From positions 310,001 to 374,000 of the forward strand of contig JAAMXY010000040.1 in NCBI GenBank assembly GCA_019677205.1: a stretch of DNA of 64,000 nt, read 5' to 3'. Position 1 is the stretch's first letter, and each line of letters opens with the position of its first letter. Both the position numbers and the translations under genes were made by a program. Positions 52 through 46,574 of the stretch are shown here, piece by piece. The notes beneath the pieces were generated by a model. It had not been told where the DNA came from, searched no databases, and saw only the letters and a program-made list of their open reading frames with translations. The DNA comes from Pinguiococcus pyrenoidosus (lineage: Eukaryota; Sar; Pinguiophyceae; Pinguiochrysidales; Pinguiochrysidaceae).

Positions 52-2060
52 CGGTATAGGACGCCCTCACCGTCGCATTCCCCAGCGCATGCTGCCACTG
101 CAGTCGTCTGTGATTCGTCGCATCGTCGTAGTACTCTTGGAATATGCCCACACATCGTGCCATCTCCGGCGGCAAGGTGATGTCCACGGCCGTGTGAGAT
201 GGCCAGTACCCGGTGGTAAGCACCTGGGCGAGCGGCAGAAGATGAGCTCAGAGCCTGGGACATGGATCGGCCGTGGCAGGCCGCGCAGTGCCGCACCTGG
301 ACGCTAAACTCGAGCTCCGCTTCTATGCTTTTATCCTGCAAGTAGATATCAAACTTCGCTCGCTGGTCGTCGCCAATGGACAAGTCATTGAGCATTCCTT
401 CCATCTTCCCGGTGAACTGAGCTCCGCAGGTAAGCTTGAGCTTGCTGATCATCATCCTTTCCCAGTCGTCGGAGGCAGAGCGCTGATAGAGAAGCCGCTT
501 GGACAGCTGGTTTCTGTAGATGTCCCCGAACAGATCCTTCTCCGTGAGGTATCCAAAGAGCCTCACCAGCTTGGTCAAGCCTTCTTCTACTTGCTCATCG
601 GACATCTTCTCGCCGCCCGTCTTCAAGATGCGATCGCAGTAGGAGCACAGAAGCGCCGCCGTCTTGTGCTTCCCGACGTCGCGGTTCACCACTTCGACAA
701 ACGCGTCCTTCATGGCCTTCTGGAACAAGCTATGGCCGCAGAACTGCTCCTGCATCAACTGCGTGTACTTGTTGTGGAGGTCGAGGAGCGCCTTGACGAA
801 GATATGATCCTGGCTGGGGTCCTTGTCGCTCTCTTCGATGCGAGCCCTGCGTGCGCCTACAACTTCCATGCCCTCGTCCTGAATGTGCTGCCTTACGAGC
901 TCCGCCATGGGGTCCAAGCCATCGGGGACCTTTCCGAACGCAAACCCCGGTTAAGACGCAAGAACTCCCTCCGAAGGCCAGTTTTGCCGTTTGCCCTCGT
1001 ACCTGTCCGAAGAGCGTGAACATTCGACTGAGGTCCTCCAGTCGATTATTTGCCAGGAGCGCACGGCAGCCGCTGCCCTCTTTTTCGAGGAGCTGTTGGC
1101 CCGGCGTCTTCAGGAGCTCCGTCTCCACCACTCGGAGCAGGCCGTCTTTGGTACTATTGTTGAGATACTCGGTCACCCGCTTGGTCTCCGCACGCAGCGC
1201 CTCCTCCGTCCTGATCAGGTACGTCGGCGTCGACTCCGAGTCGAGCCATTCGGACGCTTTCATCCGGTAGTAGCGGGTGGTGCTCTCCAGGAGTTGCTCC
1301 TCGAAGTCCCCCGTGTACACATCCAGGGTCGCCATTCCAATGTCCTCCAGGAGGCTGATGCAATCGCGCACTCGCTGCTTATCGATGATGCCGCCCTCGC
1401 GCTCCTTGTTGATCTCGGCTAGGAGTGCGTCCACCACGCGATCCTTGACCACATCGTAGACGATCGTCTTGAACTTGGTGATCCCCGAGTTCACCAGTGG
1501 GGGGAGGTTCTCGTGGTGCACGTAGTAGCGATCCAGATACATGAAGAACTTCCGCATCCAGCTGTTCATGATCTTATGATTATTCCACCGGTGCACCAGC
1601 TCCGTGAGGATGAAATCATTGTTCTTGCTCATGATGGCGGGGAGGACCGTGTGCGAGAGGTAGTTCTCGATGACCTCTCCATGCCTGAAGCAAGGAGAAC
1701 GCGTCAGATGCCACGCGGCGGCTGGAGAAGACCAGCGTTTCCAAACGGAAGCATCCTGTACCTCTTGTACAACTGCTCAGAATGATTGTACGGCTGCCGC
1801 TGGACGCACATGTTGTAGCATGTCGTGTAGGTGTGGATGTATTCCGCGTTGGAGAACTACGCAGCCACGGATTCGCAGATGAGCCACGCGCTTGCGCCTT
1901 CGCAACACCCCACTTTTCCTGCTTTCTCTGCAGATGGCGTTCTGCTCACCTTGTTCTTCCCACTGAAATCACTGTTCAGCATGTCCTCGAGCACATCGAT
2001 TGCTTTCGGTTTGATTTCGTTGTCCCAGCCGTCGTCCAGGCTTATGGTGGTATTGCTCAT
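52..2060 (-). CDS. Cullin (CUL1-like), 3' end beyond window
   Basis: Scaffold of a cullin-RING E3 ubiquitin ligase. I read five exons on the minus strand: 2060-1950, 1856-1762, 1684-1003, 929-297 and 223-52, all with GT-AG borders and matching phase; the gene continues past base 1. The start ATG at 2060 gives MSNTTISLDDGWD. Later segments match cullin signatures: YTTCYNMCVQRQPYNHSEQL in the N-terminal helical repeats, the cullin-homology stretch with YRNQLSKRLL, and TTGYWPSHTAVDITLPPEM. The closest recalled match is plant/animal CUL1, the SCF scaffold. The C-terminal winged helix and NEDD8-acceptor lysine lie outside the window. The family call is secure; the CUL1 subtype is inference. Confidence 0.93.
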
Positions 2061-3415
2061 CTTCACCCAGGTAACTGCTCTCGCAGAGCGCCGCCAGAGG
2101 ATTCGCAGACCTGTGCGGATCGTCCGGCCGTCAGCGGCAGGGCGGGTGCGGGTGCGGGGAGGCCCGAAGGGCCGGTCCGTATTTCCCAACGACCGACATC
2201 CGAATGCACTCTAGTTTTCCCTCGGGCAACAGACCCGGAGCTTTCCATCGACTCTGAGGCGCTCGTCACAAGACTCAATCAAGCTCTATGACGGCTCGGT
2301 ACGAATCCGAGTGCGTCCACAGAGAGACTCCGTTTTCGCAACGCGTCCGAAGAGTTCGAAACAAGTCGCAATCCTTTCAAGCGGCAAGAGGCGCACCTGA
2401 GACGCCCTCTTGCCAGCGGAGTGCGCAGGTAGTACCTTGTAGAACGCCTGCCAGCAGCTGGACCACTTGTCGGGCGAACGCCGACAGAAATCGAGGCGCA
2501 CACAGCGCTGATGGCAGAGCTCCCTCGGCGCCGAACAGCAATTTTAAAAGAAGATTGTTTGGATCTCGACACCCTTGATCAGCCGGCAGAACCCATTGCC
2601 AAAAAAATGTGACAGACAGATGCTTGGGTTCGAAACAGCCTGGATGCGGGTTCCTGTGGCCTGCAGCTTTCGAGGGCGCAAGAGGAGCCGTGTCCGCGCC
2701 CGCGGATGCGTTGGGCGCGCCTTCGGTTCTTGTAGACGATTTCACCTCCGTGACAAGGGTACGCTTGCATCTGCACCGGGAAACGCTGTGGTCCAACGGG
2801 CCTGAAATTCTGGACGGACGCGGGTGCTTGAGCCGGTGATCTCCGAGACATACGGTGGCAGTGAAGGGACTTTGAGTGAAGGAGGTCATGCAACGCTTCT
2901 TTCCTATGGCACTTAAGGTGAAGGCCTGATCCACGGGCGAATCGAGATGTGCTGGCGTTGTCCCAGCCAGCGATGTTTTGCGGCACATGCGAAGCTCAAG
3001 TGCTGCGGTATCTTTGCCACAAGGAGATGAACATGGCCTGGAAGCAAGCAGCAACCACCGCAGATCAACAACGGCGACGTTCCTAGCTTGCAACCACAAG
3101 CTCGGGTCCATGGAACGTGGGAAAGGTTGCCGTCGTCGCCGAAGAACTTGCGTTCGGAGCAGCCCCATCCAGCGAAGTGGGAACGGGGCCGTTTTGGCTC
3201 ACGCGCGCCTTCTGGAGTCGGCTGCATGGTGAGGAAGCGGCGCAGAGACGAAGGTCCGCAATGCTGGTACCCATCTTGTAGCTGGTTATCATGCTCGAAG
3301 AGCTGGAAGGCTTGTACTGCTTGAGAGAGAGTCTAGCAGCTTGCACCTGAACAACCTTTCCTCGGGCACACAGTGTCTGCTTCTATGTACACGCAGCCCC
3401 TGAGACCAATCGAGC
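2061..3415. other. Intergenic, no gene recognised
   Basis: This 1.35 kb lies between the cullin start and the 3' end of the MSH1-like gene. Open frames such as the minus-strand one at 2377-3168 lack ATG-anchored domains and read like random GC-rich sequence. No RNA gene or repeat was recognised. Confidence 0.5.
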
Positions 3416-6400
3416 CTATCTAGCGAATCTGTAGTGTGCGCCGTCAGCGCTGCTTCGCAAGGGAAAGCGCTCCCGAGCGAGTGCACGAATTAAGGTGGAC
3501 TCGGTCTCACGCGCACGGGACTTGTTGGGCGACACCAGATACGCACATCGCAGTATCTGAGCTCCTCCTTCCTGGCTCCGCTTCACCGCCTTTCGATGCT
3601 GCTCCAATCGCTGTCGAAAGCTATCCGTCTCTCCGACGTAGAGCCACTCGGTTTGATATGCGTCGCTCTGCTTGCCTGCGCCGGCCTTGCTGCGCAGCTC
3701 GAGAATGTACACGACCGAGACCGAGTCAACGCTCACGGGCGGACGATACTGATCTTCCAGTAGAACGAAGCTCTCGCTGGCTTCACCCACTTCGCACGAG
3801 CCCACTTCTATGGCCCTCTCCAGTGTCTTGGCCAGCGCCGTATCTGTATTCACATTCGCGTTCGCGTACGCGTTCACTCTTGCCCTTGCAGCGATCTCTT
3901 GTGTCCGAGACGACCATGCAGGCCTTGTCGATTGTGATTCTGTCGCACCAGTGCTCAAGAGAGCCTGCGCACGGTCAAGAATCACTTCTGGAATTCCGTA
4001 TCTACTCGCGGTCACCTAGGGAATAAGAACCAAGGTTGAGAACTTGTGGGATGCCGCTGGACTAGCAAGTCATGGGCAGCCGAGCTCACCATTGCGAGGC
4101 TATCACGACAGATCCCCGGCTCGACCTTGTAGGTCCACTCCACACCGTGCGGGTTACTGTCGGAGCCTTGAACCCCCATTCTCATACAGACGACTCGCCC
4201 ACCGTCCACCGGGCCCGGTTCCTCTGGTGCATCGTGTGGCAAGCAACTCAATGGAAGTTCAAACATCTCGAAGAGGTGAGTGGCGAAGATGCCACTCATG
4301 CCTTTCGCACACATGTCCTCCAAGATCGCCGCCGCCAGAGCCGCGCCTAGAACCATGGGGTTAGGGTGGTCGCTGCCTACGGGAGCCGTCGGCATCCCAG
4401 CGGTCTCACCGTCCCGGGAGCTAGTCCCTCTTCCTAGCTCATCGACGGCTACCAATGACTTCGCGCCGCAGTCTCGAAGGAGGCATCTACCATCAACGCC
4501 ATTGTGAGAAGGCTGACGATCCGTTTGTACGCCAAACGAGGAGACGTACCGCATGTCTTCGCATTCAACTGCCCAAGCGCTCTTGCCCTCGCTGGGGGCG
4601 TCGTGAGCAGCTCCCCGAACGAAGAAAGCATCGTACCAAGGTACGTGGCCGGCTCTTGCGGGGATGCAGAATCCACAATTGGCTAAGATTGCCGACATCA
4701 TGACGCTCCGCATCAGGGTGGACTTGCCGGACATGTTCGGAGCAGTCAAGAGGGCGAGGTTCCCGCTTCGGAGCACGATGTCGTTCACAACGGTCTCCCC
4801 AGCGTGTATCCCGCGACTCAGCCTCGAGAAGGAGCCCGGCATTGCCATCCAGAATGGCGCCACGCCTTCCAGTGAGAGAACGTGCGCCCCTTCGACTTCC
4901 AAGCTGGAGCTGGGCAGCGTGGGGACGCACCAGTCCTGCCGGACCGACGCCTCCGCGTGCCCGATTGCCGCGCCGAGGACAACTGCCCAGTGAGCGCTTA
5001 CGACCAGGAGAGGAAGATGATCGGCCAGCCGGAGCGACAAACTCTTGAGAAGCCGCCTCGCTTCCCCCTCGCAGTCTCCGGCAGCGGTTTTGTAGGTTTG
5101 CAAAGCTTCCTCGATGCGTTCCGTCGTCCATCGTGACGATATCGACTTCCCCTTCCTGTCCCGCGGATGCTTGAAATTCTTGCGTCGGTCTTTCGGCATG
5201 TCGCTGGGGCTGGGAATCTTCTTCAGCGCAATGAGGACGTTGATGTGGTCGAAGGAAAGGAAGTCTTCGTAGCCCTCTGGAACGTCCTCTCGAACAGCGT
5301 CGCAGAGCGTTTGCGCCGCTGCGGCGAGCTTTGCCAAGCTCTTGGCCATGTCCGGGTGCTCTGGGTTGGCAATGCCTCGAAACATGAGCTCACACTTCTC
5401 GAATAGCTGGGAAGGCACACACCCATTGGGGTCGGCGAAGTCTGTAGTGGTGGGGGTCTCGACGACTGCGTCGCGGATTGCCTTCAGCACTTCGTGCCCT
5501 TGAGACACCAACTCTGCGACAGGCATCTCGAGGCCGCTTTCGTGTCCCGCAACCCGATGCAGCGGAGCTAGCATTGGATCATACTGGCCTGTGCTGGACT
5601 CGAGCAGTTGCAGCAGACCTTCAAGGCATTGAGCAATCTCCCGATAGAGCGGTGCATTTCCCTCTCCCGAGGCAATCATCGCCACGATTTTTCCCGTCGG
5701 TATCGCGCGCAGCTGTGGCAATGGTGTCGAATCGAGCTCGCCGCCTGGCAAGAGGACGCCCACGAGGGACTGAAAGTCAACGGCAATCGAGGACGGCGGT
5801 GGCCTCCAAAGCCAGCTGCGCACGAACTTCTTCTCGCAGGCCAGGGCATTCGGTGGCAGGACGAAGGCAACTGGATCCGGCACAACCGCCGAGGGCAGTA
5901 CTCCCAGCTGAGCGGCCGTGCTCACATGCAAAGGCCTCGGGCGGGCATCCGATGTGCAAGACTGGGAGTCCGGACCGCCGACGGGTTCGTGACGCCGGAC
6001 AAGGCGAAAGGAGAGTGGGTCCATATCGAGACTTCCGCACACCTGCTCCACAAACACGCTTGCAAGCTCTGCGTCATCGTCAGAAGGGCTGCTCGGCGCC
6101 TTTAGAACCTGGACGTCGTCCGTCCACCACCAGAGATGATCTCTCTTGAAGCTTTGCCACCACGCCACATTTTCAGAGGTCGACAAGCCCGGGTTTCCCA
6201 AGAGAAGCAGCGAACCGCTGGCGCCCTGGTCTGCGACGCAGGCACGCAGCTCCTCGACTCGTATTCCTCTGTGCACATGGGCTTCCCGGGCGTCCAGACG
6301 CACCTCCACCAGATCCACGAAACCGCCGTCCTGGCGGTGCGTAGGAGGAGCTTGCTGCCGAGGATTCAGATCGACCCGGAGGCCCCAAACCGGTAAGTTT

Positions 6401-7668
6401 TGCCTCCACTGGACGTCGTCCGTGGTCAAGGCCATGCCGTACAGGTACGTGGACGAGCTGGGGGACACCACTTGTGCAAGGATGCGATTCTTGATCTTCC
6501 CGTTGCCGGTTCCACTGGTGCTCTTCTGCGGCAATGCGCCATGCCCAGCGGCAAGGCCATACGTGCCCCACAGCGGCTTTCGAACTGGCGAGGTCGAGTC
6601 GCGCATCTCGACGTCGGCAGCCTCCACGAACACGGCAACGGTGAAGCCTGCGGCGGTGAGGCTGTCCAAGGTTTGCTGGATGTTCCGCAATGGGCATCCC
6701 GCCCGAGCTCTGCCTCCCATAGGATTGAGGCCCGCATGCTCCACCAAGAGCAGCGCATCGGCGCCGAAGGCCTCGAAGAACTCTCCCACTTGCACCAGCA
6801 ACACCTTGAACAGCGGAATGGATATGAGGAAATTTCCACGCACCGGGAGACTCGTCTTTCGACTACACAGGACTGCACGGTACCTTCTCAGGATGCTCCC
6901 GCTTCTGATGCAGCACCCAGTTGAGCAACGTGCCTTCCTTCTTCAGTAGATTCGTGCCGCTGGGCACTGACGAGGTCGCTCCCCTCCGCCAAATCTTCGA
7001 GGGTGGCGGTTGGAAAGCCAGCTCGTTCTCCGCCACCAGCTGGGGCAACAGCTCCAGTGCACTGTTCCGCTGCATGCTTGCCAGCCTCGGGATCCAGCAA
7101 GGGTGGAGACAGCCTTGCTGCAGCTCCAGCAATGTGTCTCGATGCGGCACATCTTCTGGGATCGGGCACTCCGCCATTTGCGCGACGTCCAGCAACGCTT
7201 CAGCCGGCGCAGGCTCTTCCAGGGGGAATTCGTCCGGGAAGTTCAGCCTGGAACGCGCCCTTTCGCCGAAGTACTGCATGGCGGCCTGATCATAGGCTCT
7301 AGCGGCGGCCTTTGCGTCATCGAAGGTGCCAAGCACTTTTCGCTGGCCTTGAACGGTGACTTGCGCCGCAAATCTCCTGCGGAGGACTTTCGATTAGTCT
7401 GTTTGTCTAGCGCAGGAAGGCCACTTTACATCGTCCTGTACCCATTCGCTCTCCCGTAGACGCCCCGATACGCGTCTCTAGGAGCATCAGGCCCTCGACT
7501 GCCTTGAGCTCGTACAAGCGACGCTGCCCGGGGGCGGCCGGCATGGAAGCACTTGGGCCTCAGCGGTCTGAGCGGGGAAGTCAACGCCCGTGCTTGGCGC
7601 GAAAAAGAAGTTGACGCTCGAAGCATCCCATGCAGTGCCAAGAGCCTCAGGAGGGTGCGCCGCACCAT
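3416..7668 (-). CDS. MSH1-type MutS with N-terminal AP2 and C-terminal GIY-YIG domains
   Basis: Predicted organelle mismatch-repair or recombination-surveillance protein, about 1302 aa. Exons: 7668-7442, 7376-6884, 6804-4550, 4486-4410, 4346-4090 and 4015-3416; all phases close. Residues 1-60 are rich in Arg, Ser and Ala with no acidic residues, so probably a targeting presequence. An AP2 domain follows (about 67-125): YRGVYGRANG, then RFAAQVTVQGQRKVLGTFDD, AAARAYDQAA and RLNFP. MutS domain I begins near 240 with VLLVQVGEFFEAFGADALLL (mismatch-reading F-x-E). RPRPLHVSTAAQLG is typical of plant MSH1. The ATPase has Walker A TAPNMSGKST and Walker B VAVDELGRGT. The C-terminal GIY-YIG domain shows VYIL, WLYVGETD, an Arg and ETESTL. 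AP2 and MutS regions share exon 2 in one frame, so the fusion is read directly. Organelle targeting is inferred; mitochondrion versus plastid is undecided. Confidence 0.9.
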
Positions 7669-39707: not shown

Positions 39708-42700
39708 ATGGGCGCCGGTTCGTCGCTCGCGGCCAGAGAGCCCAGGGCATGGCTGCACAGCCGCCAAGACGCCGCGGTGCGGCCCGAACAGGCGCCCAAC
39801 ATCATGGTCGAGGGCCGCTCTTTGGCGCGCGCGCCGGATCGAGTGGTGGAGGCGGCGCGCGGCCTGCGCGACTCGGAAGACTTCCTCAAGGCGGCGCATA
39901 GCCAGCAGCAGCTGCTGCGCGAGTCGCTCAAGATGGACGACGCCTTGGACGACGAGTACGACGCCAAGAGAGGCGCCAAGCGCTGGACGCGCCAGCAGCC
40001 CGCGCCGCAGAGAGGCAGCTGGACGGCCAACAGCTTAAGCTCCATCGCCACGGATGTGGCCATGCGTAAGATGAAGAACACGCGCTACCTGGGCCTGGGC
40101 CACTTCTCCAACCGCAGCTTCGAAGGCGTCGTGAGCGAAGCGCCCAGTCGGTTGGCCTCCGCCACCACCAGCAAACTGCAGTGGAACCCCAAGACGGACC
40201 GCTTCGAGTCCCTGACGCCGCTGTCCATGGAGACCAACCTCAACCGAGAGCCCTCGATGCGGAGAATCCTGCATGCGCGCCAGGGAGACCCCAAGTACGC
40301 CGCTGGAGAGCGGCAGGAGCAGGAGACCCTCGCCGCCAGGAAGGCCGCATTGGCCCGCAGCGCGCGCCACAGCGTGGAAGAGCCCGGCACCAACAGCCCA
40401 GACAACAGCGCCGACGACATCAGCGTGCTCACGGTCCACACCAACGCCACCGTGCTGCTGGAGCTGGACTACGGCGCCGCGAGAGACGCCGAAGCCGCTG
40501 AAGTCGCCGGCGACACGTCCCCTGGGCAGCCGCAAACAGCACTTCAGACCCAAGCACAAGCGCAGCTGCAATTGGCGGCGGATACGGATCAGTCCAGCAC
40601 GGACAAGAGCCAAGACTCGGGCGCCTTCGCCAGCCCCAAGGCCAAGGCGCTCCGCGAAGACCTGCAGCGATCCAGCTTCCAGGAAGACAACTCGGACCGC
40701 AAACCGCAGCTTCGGCGCAACAAGTCTGCACACCGCACCAGCTCCTTCCGCAACCCGGCCAACGCGCTGAGGGTGGAGGCCATCGAGAACGCGTCGCTCC
40801 GCCTGGACCGCGTCCTCGGCTCGCAGAGCTTGGAAAGCGGCATCACCGCGTCGCAGCAGAGCGACGGCGCCAACGGCGCCCCGCTGGCGTCGCTGGCGTC
40901 CTTGCCGAGGGGAAACAGTCTGAGTAGCATTAAGGTCCCACACTACGTGGACGCACGGGCGAGTGTGGGGTCCCGGAGGCCCAAGCAAAGCCTCACGTCC
41001 CTGGTGAACGGGGACCTCGAGCTGCGGGCACGAGAGCAAAAGGACGCGCCTGCCGTCGGAGACCGGCCGGAGACTTTGAAGAACGATGCAAGTGCCTCGA
41101 CAGAGAAAGCGGCGCAGGAGCCCTGGATGCCCACTGCGCAGACAGCAAAGGATGGCAAGCTGCCGCCACTCCTCGGACACAGCCGCAAGCAGAGCGGCTC
41201 CCTGGGAGACAAGCCCGGCTTCCTGACCTACGTGAGAAAGCTCCGGCCCAGTGACTCCAAGGCCTCGACGCGGCCCGATGACCAGGTCTTCACCGGCGGC
41301 GCCGAAGACGACACCGACAGCAAAGCGCAGCAGCGGCGAAAAGGACCCAGGACTCCGAAGGCGAAGCGGAAGCCCAGGCCGCCAAGCTTCAGCAGCCCGC
41401 GCAGCAATCGCATGCGGCCGCAGGCCGCCAAGCGAGCGGAAGCGCAGCCGCCGCCAAGGGTCCATGTTGGCAACTCTCCTGACGACCTTCGCCCGAAGGA
41501 GAACATCGTGCCGGCCAGGCAGGGCTGTGGTGCCCAGACAGAGCCTCCAAGGTTCAATGTGCCGGGCAGGTTGGCCTCGCTGGCAGCTCAGGGGCACAAC
41601 CAGCTCCGGCAGGCCTCGGGCTTGCCGTTCATCAACCCGGCCTCCAGCACCAGCAGCGGCTTCGCCCCTCCCGTGGTGAAGATCCCGGCGCAGAATCTGC
41701 ACATCGGGATCCCCAGCAGCTCGAGCACGGACAGCGTGCGGCAGCGAGATGGCGTCTTGACCTTCAAGAAGATCCTGCACTCGGAGAAGGACCGAGAGGA
41801 TCACATCGACGAGTACGGCTGGTGGCGCTTCGGCGCGCGCCAAGGAAGCTACTGGAGCTACCACGAGCGGCTCGTGAACGTGAAGCGGCTGGGTTCCGGC
41901 GTCTCCAGCGTCGTGTACAAGAGCTACGATCTGCTCACGCAGCATCTCGTGGCCGTCAAGGTGATCCGCATCGGCGACCGCAAGAATCGCCAGCAGGTGC
42001 GCAAGGAGCTGGAGATCCTGTACAAAACGATCACGGAGATACACAAGCGCTCGCGGAGGAGGCCGTCGCTGAAGCCGCGCATCTCCAACGACCTGGCCTG
42101 GGACTGCGATGCCAGCAACATCGGCGACGAACTGTCCGTGTCCGTCTCGTTCAACAAGGAGGAGGAGTCGTCCTGCGGAAGCGTCGCGTCTCGCCAATGC
42201 GCTGTGAAGAAGTATTGGGACAACCCCGCGCGGCATCTTGTCTCGCTTCTCGATGTCTTTTGCTGTCCGGAGGACAACACCGTCTCCATCGTCATGGAGT
42301 ACGTCAACGGCGGTACGCTGCAAGACGTCGTGGAGCTCGGCGGAGTCTCCGACGAGCGCGTGCTCGCGAGCATCGCCTTCCAGGCGCTAGTTGGGCTTGG
42401 CGCCCTTCACGAGCTGCGGGTGATCCACCGCGACATCAAGCCCGCGAACCTCCTCATCTCCAGGGACGGCCTGGTCAAGATCAGCGACTTCGGCATCTCT
42501 GGAGTGGAAGAAGCGCAGGCGCAGACGCCGAAGAGGAGCAAGACGCGCAGCATGCCATCGCAGTATGCGGCAAAGTACAAGGCAAAGATTGCAGGACAGC
42601 CGAAGGAGAAGAAAAGGCCGCGCAGCTCGGGTGTCGCACAAGTCGAGCCGAATGCTCAGTTCAACGGCTTCGCAAAGGTTGGCACGACGTGGTACATGTC

Positions 42701-43718
42701 ACCAGGTGCGTCCCAGGCTTTGGAGAGGCTTGTCTCATGGGCAGCCAACGAACTGAACGACCGAACGAACGCACGCCTCATCTGAACACAATGCTGGATT
42801 GCTGAACCTTGATCCAACACCACAGAACGCCTTGCAGGAGAGGAGTACGGCTACAACTCGGATGTCTGGGCGCTTGGTCTCTCCCTCGTCACGATTGGTG
42901 AGACTTCCCCAACCTCGTCCCGCAGAGTGCTCGGTCGTTCGACCTAAGCCCACAAACAAAACTCTAAAACGTCTTGCGCAGCTCTAGGGGAAATGCCGCT
43001 GTCGCTCGACCTGAGCTACTGGAAGTTGAAGGAGCGCGTCCGCGATGGTAAGTCTGATGCAACCCACTTCTCCTCCTGGCTGTTGATGTCCCTTACTAAA
43101 AAAGTAAAAAACTCTCCGTGCTCTGTAGGCCCACCTCCCACACTGCCCGAAGACGACCTGCGCTGGAGTCCGGACTTCAAGGACTTCATCCGGCAGATGC
43201 TGGTGAAGAATGCCGTTGATAGACCGGCGGCCGAGGAGCTGCTCCTTCACCCGTTTCTGAGGGTGGCGCGCGAGCAGTATGAGAGAGAAGGTGGGCCCGG
43301 GGTACAGAACCCCTGTCCAGTCGTGCCGCGCGATCTGAAGGTGAAGCAAGCTGCCTTGGCCCATCTGGACGAGATCACGATGGCCATCCGGGAACACTGC
43401 TTCGAGGTCAAGAGCAAGCCGGGCGCTCCTGGGCCGCATCCCAAGCGCCGGAACTTCTCGGTCGACTCCGTGGACCTGTCCCACAGCAATCGCATTCACC
43501 AGCCGGGACAGCTGCTCGACTTTGCCCGCCAGCTCGGCCTCAGCAAGGAAGACGTCCAGAGCAAGCTCCAGGCGGATGGCATCCCAGGACTGGTGGCGCA
43601 GATACGCCCGCTCTGCGAGTCGGATTGGTGCTCCAACAGCACATGTAGCAGTGACAGCGTGTGCTCCCCTCGGCACCAGAGTCTGTCGTATGGGCGAGCT
43701 TCTGAGGGCCAATACTAG
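39708..43718 (+). CDS. MAP2K-like protein kinase with long disordered N-terminus
   Basis: Four exons: 39708-42705, 42826-42897, 42988-43047 and 43129-43718; phases close, 1239 aa. The start MGAGSS fits N-myristoylation. Residues 7-700 are low-complexity, Ser/Ala/Lys-rich, without a recognised domain. The kinase domain starts near 720: Gly loop LGSGVSSVVY, VAVKVI lysine, hinge MEYVNGG, HRDIKPANLLI catalytic loop, DFGISG, then GTTWYMSPERL, which resembles the activation segment end of STE7/MAP2K kinases. Two insertions interrupt it: about 60 residues after the alpha-C region (SVSFNKEEESSCGS) and a basic stretch between DFG and GTTWYMSP. A 150-residue tail follows. Its stop is 18 bp from that of separase. 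Confidence 0.85.
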
Positions 43719-43736
43719 AACGTTGAGATCCTATCA

Positions 43737-46574
43737 TTACCATCTGTCTGGCACCCCGTACACGACGGGGGCAGCGCCTGTCAAGTGACGAAGTTTGCAG
43801 CCGTCCCGTGCCCTCGCCGCCGCAGCAATGATGCTCGCCGGACCGGTGACGTCTCCAGCATCAGGCTGCGAAGCCTCTTCCAAGGCCAAACCGTCTATGA
43901 GCCGGACGGTGAACCCGTCAATGTCTTTATCTGTCACGTCCCACAGGCACGCAGTCACGCACGAGCTTCCGGCGATGAGGTAGTGAAGCAGAAGAGCATC
44001 CGGCTCGAAGCGTCCCTCGTGCCGAACAGCTCCGCTGGAACACCCGATCAGCAAGGCGCATGCGCAGCGCCTGAGCTTGGCGAAGAGACGTCGCTCGGAA
44101 AGAGGCTCTCCGGCACCGTGACCGCTGTACAAGAGCAAGTCACACTCGTCGAGGATGGGGAACAGAGTCTCGGACTTTGCTGATCCGCCGCAAGTTGCCT
44201 CATTCGGCCCAATGCTGCCGCTCCATCCTGGCCCCGGATCGTTCCACCTTGCCGTGCGCTGTGCGTCGAAGTCGAACGCAGTCGTGGGCGCATCGATGCG
44301 CCCGTACTTTGACCGCAGTCTGCTAAGAAGCGTGGCCATTCTCTTGCCCGTGTTGGGCAGGTTCCCTTCCCAGTCCGCAATGACGTGGCCCCGTAGGCAG
44401 CCGAAGGCAGTCCGCGTCGGATCCTGCTGCCGTCGCAGAGCGATGGCGGCCCGGCGGCTCTCGCCCTTCGCGAGTAGATGTTGGACGAAGTCGAGGTGCG
44501 GCACACGGGATATTCTACACCTCGCCTTGCTCCGGAGGCAAGGCAGCGATTCGATGGGGAGGTTTGCCAAATCCTTGCAAAGGGTCAGCACGATCCACTC
44601 GGACGCCTCCACGTCCGGGACCACGCGGCAAAAGACCTCGTCGGCCTCCTTGAGCCAGAAGCCGATGGCCTCGTCGATCTCCTCCCGCTCCTCCCACCAC
44701 TTGCGCTTGCTCGCGTTGCCCTCCTCTGACAACTGCGCCTTGTTCCTGCTCCGAATCTCGTCAAACTCATCGAGAAGATCCGCAAATTCCGGAGAGTAGA
44801 CCGCCGTCGTCGACGGCGCCCGATCTCTTTGGAGCTTCGTGCAGATGAGATGAGCCTTCTCCGTGAACACAAGGCAGACGTGCACCAAATCGGCTGGCAA
44901 CCCCTGAACCATCGCTTGAAGCACATCCACGGACCACGGATAGGAGAAGCTTGACTCCGCATTTGCGGCGTGCGAATCCAGGTGATGAAGTCGGAGACGG
45001 CGGGCGGCCGTCACGCCAACAGCGCCTTGCACCGACGCGGCAACGGACCACTCATGCTCCGGCTCTGGAGACGCGGCATCCGCCGGATCCTGACGAAACA
45101 TCGCCGTCAAGCGCGTCCGCAAAATCTGTGCAGAAAGGAGAGGAGCGCCATCTCGGCACAATCGAAGGGCTCGGCTGCAGATGTTCAAAAAGTCTTCCAC
45201 GCACAGCTGCTCTTCGATCAGCAGGCGCGACGATCGCTTCGCACGTTTCTTCACCATTGCCAACGCTTCCTTGGCCACTCCGACGGCGTCGTCGATCTGC
45301 TTCCGTTGCAGGATCTTCGCGCAGAGCCCCTCCAAGTGGCGAAGGGACGTGTCCTCGGCCTGTGCGGGCCTCAAGAACTCGGGACTGCCACCGCCCGAGG
45401 GGCAGTAGTCGACGATCCGCTGCAGCGCTTCGGCGGCGGGACACGAGCCGAAGCCGAGCCCGAGGCCGAGGTCGAGAAAGTTGTCGTGGGCGACCTTGTA
45501 CGCCAAGAAGTACATGACGTAGGCTGGCACGGCGCTGACAACCTTCTGGTGCTGAATTGCCTTTCCGCAGAGCATCAGGAGCTGAAACATCGTCGTCGGG
45601 AGTTCGTTGCCATCTAGTCCGGTGCGACCGAACGCGTCAGTGAGCTTCTCAAGATTCTCAGCTTCCAGGCTCAGAAGCGTCTCGCAGACGCTCTCGTCCA
45701 TGGGATTCGCTTGATTCGCCGGCCTCTCGCGAAGCTGCTGCGCCAGTTCCGCTGCGATCTCGAGCCGATCCCTCGCAACGGAGAGCGCAAGACGGTATCG
45801 TACCGCCGTGTCGCCCTTCGCTCGAGCCCCGAGGGCCGCGAACACGCTGATCGCGTGGCGTCCGTATGCATCAGCCTCGCGGGGAAAGCCCCCTCTCGCG
45901 CAAGACACGGCGAGTTGCAGGAGCACCCGCGCCAGCAGCTGCATCCAAAACACACTTGGCGCGCCTCCGCTCACGGCTGCCTTGCACTGTGCGAGCGCCC
46001 GCTGCAGTCGCGCCCCTGCCAGCTCTGCGTCGCCACGACACTGCTCGTTTTGCACTTGGCTCAAGAGAAACGCAGCCACCGGCTCCAAAACCTCTGCCGG
46101 CGCCTCTCGCGCGTGGATGTTCACGATGCTTAAGAGCATCGCCGCCACTTTCTGGCCTCCGCGCGTCACCTGAGGAAGCAGAGCAGAAGCGCCGTCTTCC
46201 CCAAGGAGTCGCCTGCGGTGTTCGTGGCTGTACCAAAGCTTGAGGTGGCTCTTCTCCAGATGGGCGGCAACTTCGTGCATGGGCCGCTTCAGCAGCGCGT
46301 GCACCACAAACACCAAGACTTGGAGGGTTCGCTTCCAGATCTCTTCCATCTCCTGCGCGTCTTCCTTGACATCTGAGAAGCGCACGTGACGCGTGAGCAG
46401 AGCCAGATTCGTCCATGGGATGGAAAAAGGCTGAGAAAGCCCTTTTCGCAAGTATGGTGCCGCAAGAAAGACACATCAAGACGCCGTACCATTTGGATCC
46501 GCGTACACTTCGTTCACCATCCGCAGGAGCTCCGCTCCGCGCACTTTATCCAGACGCTTCAGCCTCTGAAGCAT
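43737..46574 (-). CDS. Separase (cohesin-cleaving cysteine protease)
   Basis: Separase cuts the cohesin kleisin to start anaphase. Two exons, 46574-46490 and 46441-43737, joined across a 48-nt intron, 929 aa. The C-terminal C50 protease is clear: catalytic His in LLLYSGHGAGE, catalytic Cys in ALLIGCSSGAV, then HYLIAGSSCVTACLWDVTD, KDIDGFTVRLIDG and GAAPVVYGVP. The upstream 650 residues are helical and poorly conserved, as expected. The protein is small for the family: yeast and human are 1630-2120 aa. An additional 5' exon cannot be excluded, but the first exon begins at an ATG with E2F-like sites upstream. Confidence 0.93.

Follow-up and report, generated by a model that had tools for sequence, protein, structure and literature searches.

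A plant-type MSH1 gene with a predicted AP2 domain in the alga Pinguiococcus pyrenoidosus

We analysed a stretch of 64,000 nucleotides from the alga Pinguiococcus pyrenoidosus (the window; contig JAAMXY010000040.1, positions 310,001 to 374,000 of the forward strand), in which a minus-strand gene at 3416..7668, with six predicted exons and 1302 residues, joins an AP2 domain to an MSH1-type MutS protein. By its sequence this gene is a plant-type MSH1, with MutS_I, MutS_V, a C-terminal GIY-YIG domain and the signature residues. On balance, and with modest confidence, we read it as a nuclear plant-type MSH1 of an alga with a red-type plastid, in which AP2 would act as an added duplex-DNA contact in an organelle repair protein. 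The original prediction, made from the letters of the window, had proposed a single gene for a presequence-like stretch, AP2, MutS with Walker motifs and GIY-YIG; the rebuilt six-exon model agreed with it, and the naming of the product as an MSH1-type MutS with GIY-YIG and AP2 was borne out by the scores of MSH1, AP2 and GIY-YIG profiles.

Results

The AP2 domain covered residues 66-123 (7235..7473, minus strand, with intron 1 inside it) and was matched by Pfam PF00847 with an E value of 7.3e-7 and 29.8 bits, below the curated cut-off of 33.3. The Pfam and profile check suggested with the original prediction gave matches to all four domains sought (AP2, MutS_I, MutS_V and GIY-YIG), those to AP2 (significant) and GIY-YIG being under the curated cut-offs, and for this reason we tested these two by separate profiles. 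An AP2 profile from which the window sequence was excluded clearly matched only one of the 1355 six-frame open reading frames (ORFs) of the window (7393-6866, minus strand, 56.3 bits; the next reached 7.1); with it, the N-terminal 160 residues scored 67.3 bits, the highest score among 1000 shuffles being 13.4. A phmmer search of PDB chains, made with a slightly longer exon 1 variant described below, retrieved ERF096 (E 2.7e-9), WRI1 (2.5e-8) and ATERF1 (7.5e-5). The evidence for the fold comes from a model of the relative P0052 and not of the spliced window protein: the AP2 part of P0052 was predicted, with local confidence, as a three-stranded sheet and a helix in the AtERF1 fold. AP2 chains were among the matches of VIA-align on this model, and Foldseek gave only MutS proteins among its best 50 of 126 matches.

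The remainder of the protein carried the MSH1 parts. The MutS domain I (residues 230-322; 6559..6916, minus strand) was matched by Pfam PF01624 at E 1.3e-7 and contained GEFFE, which we take to be the Phe-x-Glu mismatch motif. The ATPase, MutS domain V (residues 925-1123; 3956..4752, minus strand, exons 3-6), was matched by PF00488 at E 1.1e-36; APNMSGKS (4720..4743, minus strand) is presumably its Walker A motif, and the A, P, N, S, G and K of it were invariant in a three-row alignment. In the MSH1-type GIY-YIG region (residues 1179-1301; 3422..3790, minus strand) VYIL, LYVG, R and E were kept, and we assume that the kept Tyr, Tyr, Arg and Glu form the active site. Pfam placed this region at E 0.0044 and 17.7 bits, under the cut-off of 22.6, and a profile of 16 MSH1 relatives without the window protein gave 88.7 bits for the C-terminal 140 residues, the best of 200 shuffles reaching 2.7. 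A search of PDB sequences with the GIY-YIG part returned no GIY-YIG protein and mainly spurious PPR matches. Against whole-protein profiles the window protein scored 866.8 bits for MSH1 (built without the window protein), 146.1 for MutS1 and 101.9 for MutS2.

The N-terminus (residues 1-65; 7474..7668, minus strand) was Arg-rich and presequence-like, with 12 R, one K and no D or E in residues 1-60. In its composition it looks like a mitochondrial presequence.

All introns of the model, which was rebuilt from the sequence and whose splice sites are predictions from the genomic DNA, were of the GT-AG type; there were no internal stops, and the start ATG at 7668 was the first in frame after an upstream stop. 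On the minus strand, exon 1 (7442..7668, donor GTACAG) encodes the N-terminal extension and the first AP2 strand, and exon 2 (6884..7376) encodes in a single frame most of AP2, a linker, a W..L..SA..LLPQL block and the start of MutS_I. Exon 3 (4550..6804) runs through the MutS core to the Walker A region, exon 4 (4410..4486) holds the VAVDELGRGTS stretch, presumably the Walker B region, and exon 5 (4090..4346) holds ATHL, which we take to be a MutS motif. Exon 6 (3416..4015) encodes the end of MutS_V, a linker, GIY-YIG and the stop. Intron 1 (7441-7377) splits AP2, and intron 2 (6883-6805) splits MutS domain I. The original prediction had placed AP2 and the start of MutS domain I together in exon 7376-6884, which is correct for most of AP2, but the first AP2 strand lies in exon 1.

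An alternative donor of intron 1, GTAAAG, would end exon 1 at 7430 and add four residues (1306 in total), with AP2 still in frame. Pfam AP2 gave 21.2 bits for this whole 1306-residue variant versus 29.8 for the first 302 residues of the model with the 7442 donor, and our own AP2 profile gave 54.2 versus 62.2 bits, respectively. With the 7442 donor, AP2 lacked the four-residue insert and was aligned without gaps to P0052 (GRANGRFAAQ versus GRANGMFAAH). The fusion of AP2 and MutS was preserved under both donors.

We scored 64 proteins, namely 63 from three protein searches and that of the window, of which 34 were classed by clade as MSH1-type. AP2 was found in four of the 64, all within the 34 MSH1-type rows: the window protein, P0022 (Tribonema minus JKP88DRAFT_308923), and the metagenomic P0023 and P0052, and the same four stood out with AP2 profiles omitting the window protein, P0023 or both. 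In some rows the N-terminus is partial (P0036, perhaps others), so a lack of AP2 in these rows is provisional. P0022 and P0023 came from a search with residues 60-330 and P0052 from one with an alignment query, whereas the first search missed all AP2 relatives; the first search and that which gave P0052 each scored only 8000 candidates, so that further AP2 members are certainly missing from the list. No row was closer in identity to the window protein than P0052 (42-44%). In P0022, P0023 and P0052, AP2 precedes MutS_I as it does in the window protein; P0022 begins within AP2 and bears the UniRef name 'AP2/ERF domain-containing'. These three stop short of GIY-YIG, being short models or contigs, and GIY-YIG together with AP2 was seen only in the window protein. 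The deposited model of P0022 contains several near-identical repeated segments, which look like an assembly or annotation fault.

No other AP2-bearing MSH1 had been known to the original prediction. This agrees with the literature, in which a full-text search of open-licence papers gave no description of such a protein, but not with the databases, which hold P0022, P0023 and P0052. The word AP2 is absent from the main text of PMC12292046 and PMC10250338, two papers on MSH1 distribution. In viral contigs, 11 loci were matched in MutS_I, and the fetched stretches had no ORF with a full MSH1 or an AP2 match; these loci (L016-L026, IMG/VR contigs) showed ORFs that resemble MutS_I at one end, eight of the 11 spanning 578-688 residues within the fetched stretches. 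A second viral scan and one scan of prokaryote genomes, each with two short patterns and a query of the P0031-P0040 type, gave no relative, which does not imply that MSH1 is absent from viruses or bacteria.

The phylogeny with domain mapping proposed earlier was then available in two forms. A quick tree of 34 MSH1-type and four MutS1 rows placed the window protein on the MSH1 side. A careful tree used 22 of the 34 MSH1-type rows (omitting P0002, P0031, P0032, P0035, P0038, P0040, P0042, P0046-P0049 and P0051) and gave support of 89/97 for the window protein with P0052, 94/85 for Tribonema with P0024, and 97/97 for both with Chrysoparadoxa; P0023 was unplaced. By path length in this tree, P0025 was nearest to the window protein and P0052 next. 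A single clade of the four AP2 rows was rejected on the 22 rows (AU p 0.0017, at a cost of 50.5 log-likelihood units), a test to be read with the 37% filling of P0052 and the odd composition of P0022, P0023 and P0052 in mind. Since the AP2 rows are not one clade and P0024, a Tribonema relative reaching GIY-YIG, is without AP2, the domain is either old in this group and was lost several times or was taken up repeatedly, with at least three changes on the tree and gain indistinguishable from loss. The identical position of AP2 in the protein would favour an old origin with losses. AP2 was absent from all ten green-clade rows.

A further AP2 locus of the assembly, L002 (G000:C134, 855-1720, minus strand), carries two AP2 domains, like the tandem-AP2 regulators of plants. 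The search of the assembly gave no AP2 match at E 0.001 and two loci at E up to 10, the window gene and L002; two is a lower bound, as such a search readily overlooks domains interrupted by an intron (it did not list the second AP2 of L002). The window AP2 was 58.7% identical to that of L002 over 46 residues and 57% identical to that of P0052. Copying of AP2 together with its intron from L002 was rejected, because the L002 intron lies, by eye, some 4-6 codons earlier, and the two genes thus do not have it in common. Too short to be placed by a tree, the window AP2 is about equally like those of L002 and P0052, which favours neither as its nearest source.

The window lies within a contig of 378,666 bases in an assembly of 23.7 Mb. 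Cullin, GMP-PDE delta and NPR3 genes are the neighbours of the AP2-MSH1 gene, which we regard as nuclear because the contig carries them. The assembly gave 29 matches to light-harvesting genes and has one contig with rbcL, which we take to be of the red type, form ID, and one with cox1. MutS_V was found at eight places: the window gene, five loci matched best by MutS1, one split locus also matched best by MutS1, and one matched best by MutS2. As side observations, the mitochondrial cox1 at L029 (G000:C741, ORF 1456-3708) has an intron, and its exon frame continues into a putative reverse transcriptase/maturase, by eye of group II type; and positions 40001-44000 of the window had an AT skew of +0.187, the highest of 16 blocks of 4 kb.

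Discussion

Plant MSH1 lowers organelle point mutation and suppresses recombination at small repeats, and it is proposed to make breaks at mismatches that are then repaired by recombination, according to excerpts of PMC12292046 and PMC12225983. If the window protein works in this manner, it would enter an organelle, the mitochondrion being likelier than the plastid for this copy; its MutS part would recognise mismatches or recombination intermediates, and its GIY-YIG domain would cut the DNA. AP2, separated by a tether of some 45 residues from the conserved block ahead of domain I, could provide a second duplex-DNA contact near the mismatch-sensing domain, and so lengthen residence or bias the loading site. 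Its DNA preference would differ from that of plant ERF proteins, which read the GCC box.

The window AP2 kept three of the eight residues (Arg/Trp) that we take to be the DNA contacts of AtERF1, and these positions vary among the MSH1 AP2 domains themselves. With most of these contacts lost, it does not appear to be a GCC-box binder of the ERF type; it probably adds a DNA contact of unspecified sequence preference. The original prediction, which was partly supported, had also proposed that AP2 may steer the protein to organelle DNA; the fold is kept in P0052, but only three of the eight ERF contacts are present in the window protein, and the likely localisation was judged by N-terminal composition alone.

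The replaced contacts also fit the possibility, to which we give a lesser though real chance, that AP2 is a passenger, retained for the sake of folding or of contacts with proteins, with neither DNA binding nor an effect on the site of MSH1 action. Such a role would agree with the lack of an AP2 match in 30 of the 34 MSH1-type rows, some of them partial, and in P0024. However, each of the three pairs compared showed higher conservation in the domain than in its flanks. Between the window protein and P0052, identity was 33/58 (57%) in AP2 and 34% and 27% in the flanks; over the three pairs, AP2 had 33/58, 26/56 and 30/56 identical residues, the MutS_I region 56-67% identity, and the N-terminus and linker 24-34%. 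AP2 is thus a conserved island, and its fold, as predicted with local confidence in P0052, likewise speaks against a mere passenger.

A less probable alternative is that AP2 serves as a sequence-specific address, which would load MSH1 at a motif of the organelle genome such as an origin or repeat. Plant transcription factors recognise defined motifs through their AP2 domains, and the fold is kept in P0052, but a common motif is not expected when the contact positions differ from one MSH1 AP2 domain to another. It is improbable that the protein is nuclear with AP2 as a chromatin-binding module, although in plants AP2 belongs to transcription factors of the nucleus and the assembly also has the tandem-AP2 gene. 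The window protein has a presequence-like N-terminus, separate loci of the genome were matched better by the MutS1 than by the MSH1 profile, and plant MSH1 is organellar (excerpts of PMC12292046). Finally, a wrong joining of two adjacent genes for AP2 and MSH1 is very unlikely: AP2 is divided by a predicted intron, the window model is genomic only and P0022, P0023 and P0052 are predictions as well, but exon 2 and the domain order in P0023 and P0052, in each of which a single predicted protein contains both AP2 and MutS_I, speak against it and together make the fusion all but certain. The UniRef name of the Tribonema protein also speaks against such a joining, as does the length of P0023, whose 1286 residues come from contigs no longer than 4307 bases, with little room for introns.

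The organelle served may differ between MSH1 members, since the N-termini of P0023, P0052 (from a chosen inner Met), P0001 and P0029 are more hydrophobic than the presequence-like one of the window protein. Signal peptides for complex plastids are hydrophobic. MSH1 is a main reason for the slow mutation of plant organelle genomes. With AP2 as an added DNA contact, a domain of the plant transcription-factor type would be serving organelle DNA repair, and one repair protein with and without it, present in some algae and undetected in relatives, offers a natural comparison on the question of how MSH1 finds its targets in organelle DNA. The modules differed by lineage: AP2 in the window alga, Tribonema and two metagenomic proteins, a stretch like the DNA polymerase I thumb in a Nitzschia diatom clade, and nothing recognisable in the others. 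Tentatively, the MSH1 N-terminus in algae with red-type plastids might be a socket for exchangeable DNA-contact modules, which would choose the DNA structures or the organelle served.

Comparison with known systems

AP2-bearing homing endonucleases resemble the window protein in combining AP2 with a nuclease domain. In the window protein, however, the nuclease is of the GIY-YIG type and lies beyond the MutS part, at the opposite end from AP2; Pfam scans of it found no HNH nuclease, and we do not class it with the AP2 homing endonucleases. With the AP2/ERF factors (AtERF1, 1gcc; ERF096, 5wx9; TEM1; WRI1) the window AP2 shares the YRG start, AARAYD..A and the LNFP end, the sheet and helix being predicted in the model of P0052; it differs in a shorter turn, in the replacement of most ERF contacts, and in its attachment to a DNA-repair protein.

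MSH1 of the Nitzschia clade (P0025, P0029, P0001) likewise has an extra module between the leader and MutS_I, but a different one, without AP2. The stretch like the DNA polymerase I thumb lies at residues 122-185 of P0025, 72-141 of P0029 and the N-terminus of P0001. PF00476 matched P0025 at E 9.6e-6, below the cut-off, and P0029 at 0.013; Pfam gave no PF00476 match in P0001 and P0034 of this clade, P0001 nonetheless aligning with P0025 and P0029. Against PDB sequences, the P0025 stretch alone matched DNA polymerase I at E 0.0038, and a profile of the three proteins matched 32 sequences to E 1 (best 0.021), of which 30, almost identical among themselves, bore the name DNA polymerase. We regard this likeness as suggestive only.

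Plant-type MSH1 (CHM/MSH1) is reported, in excerpts of PMC12292046, from Viridiplantae, protists, some Gammaproteobacteria and nucleocytoviruses. The window protein has the same order of MutS_I, MutS_V and C-terminal GIY-YIG and the same signature residues, and it differs by the AP2 domain between a presequence-like stretch and MutS.
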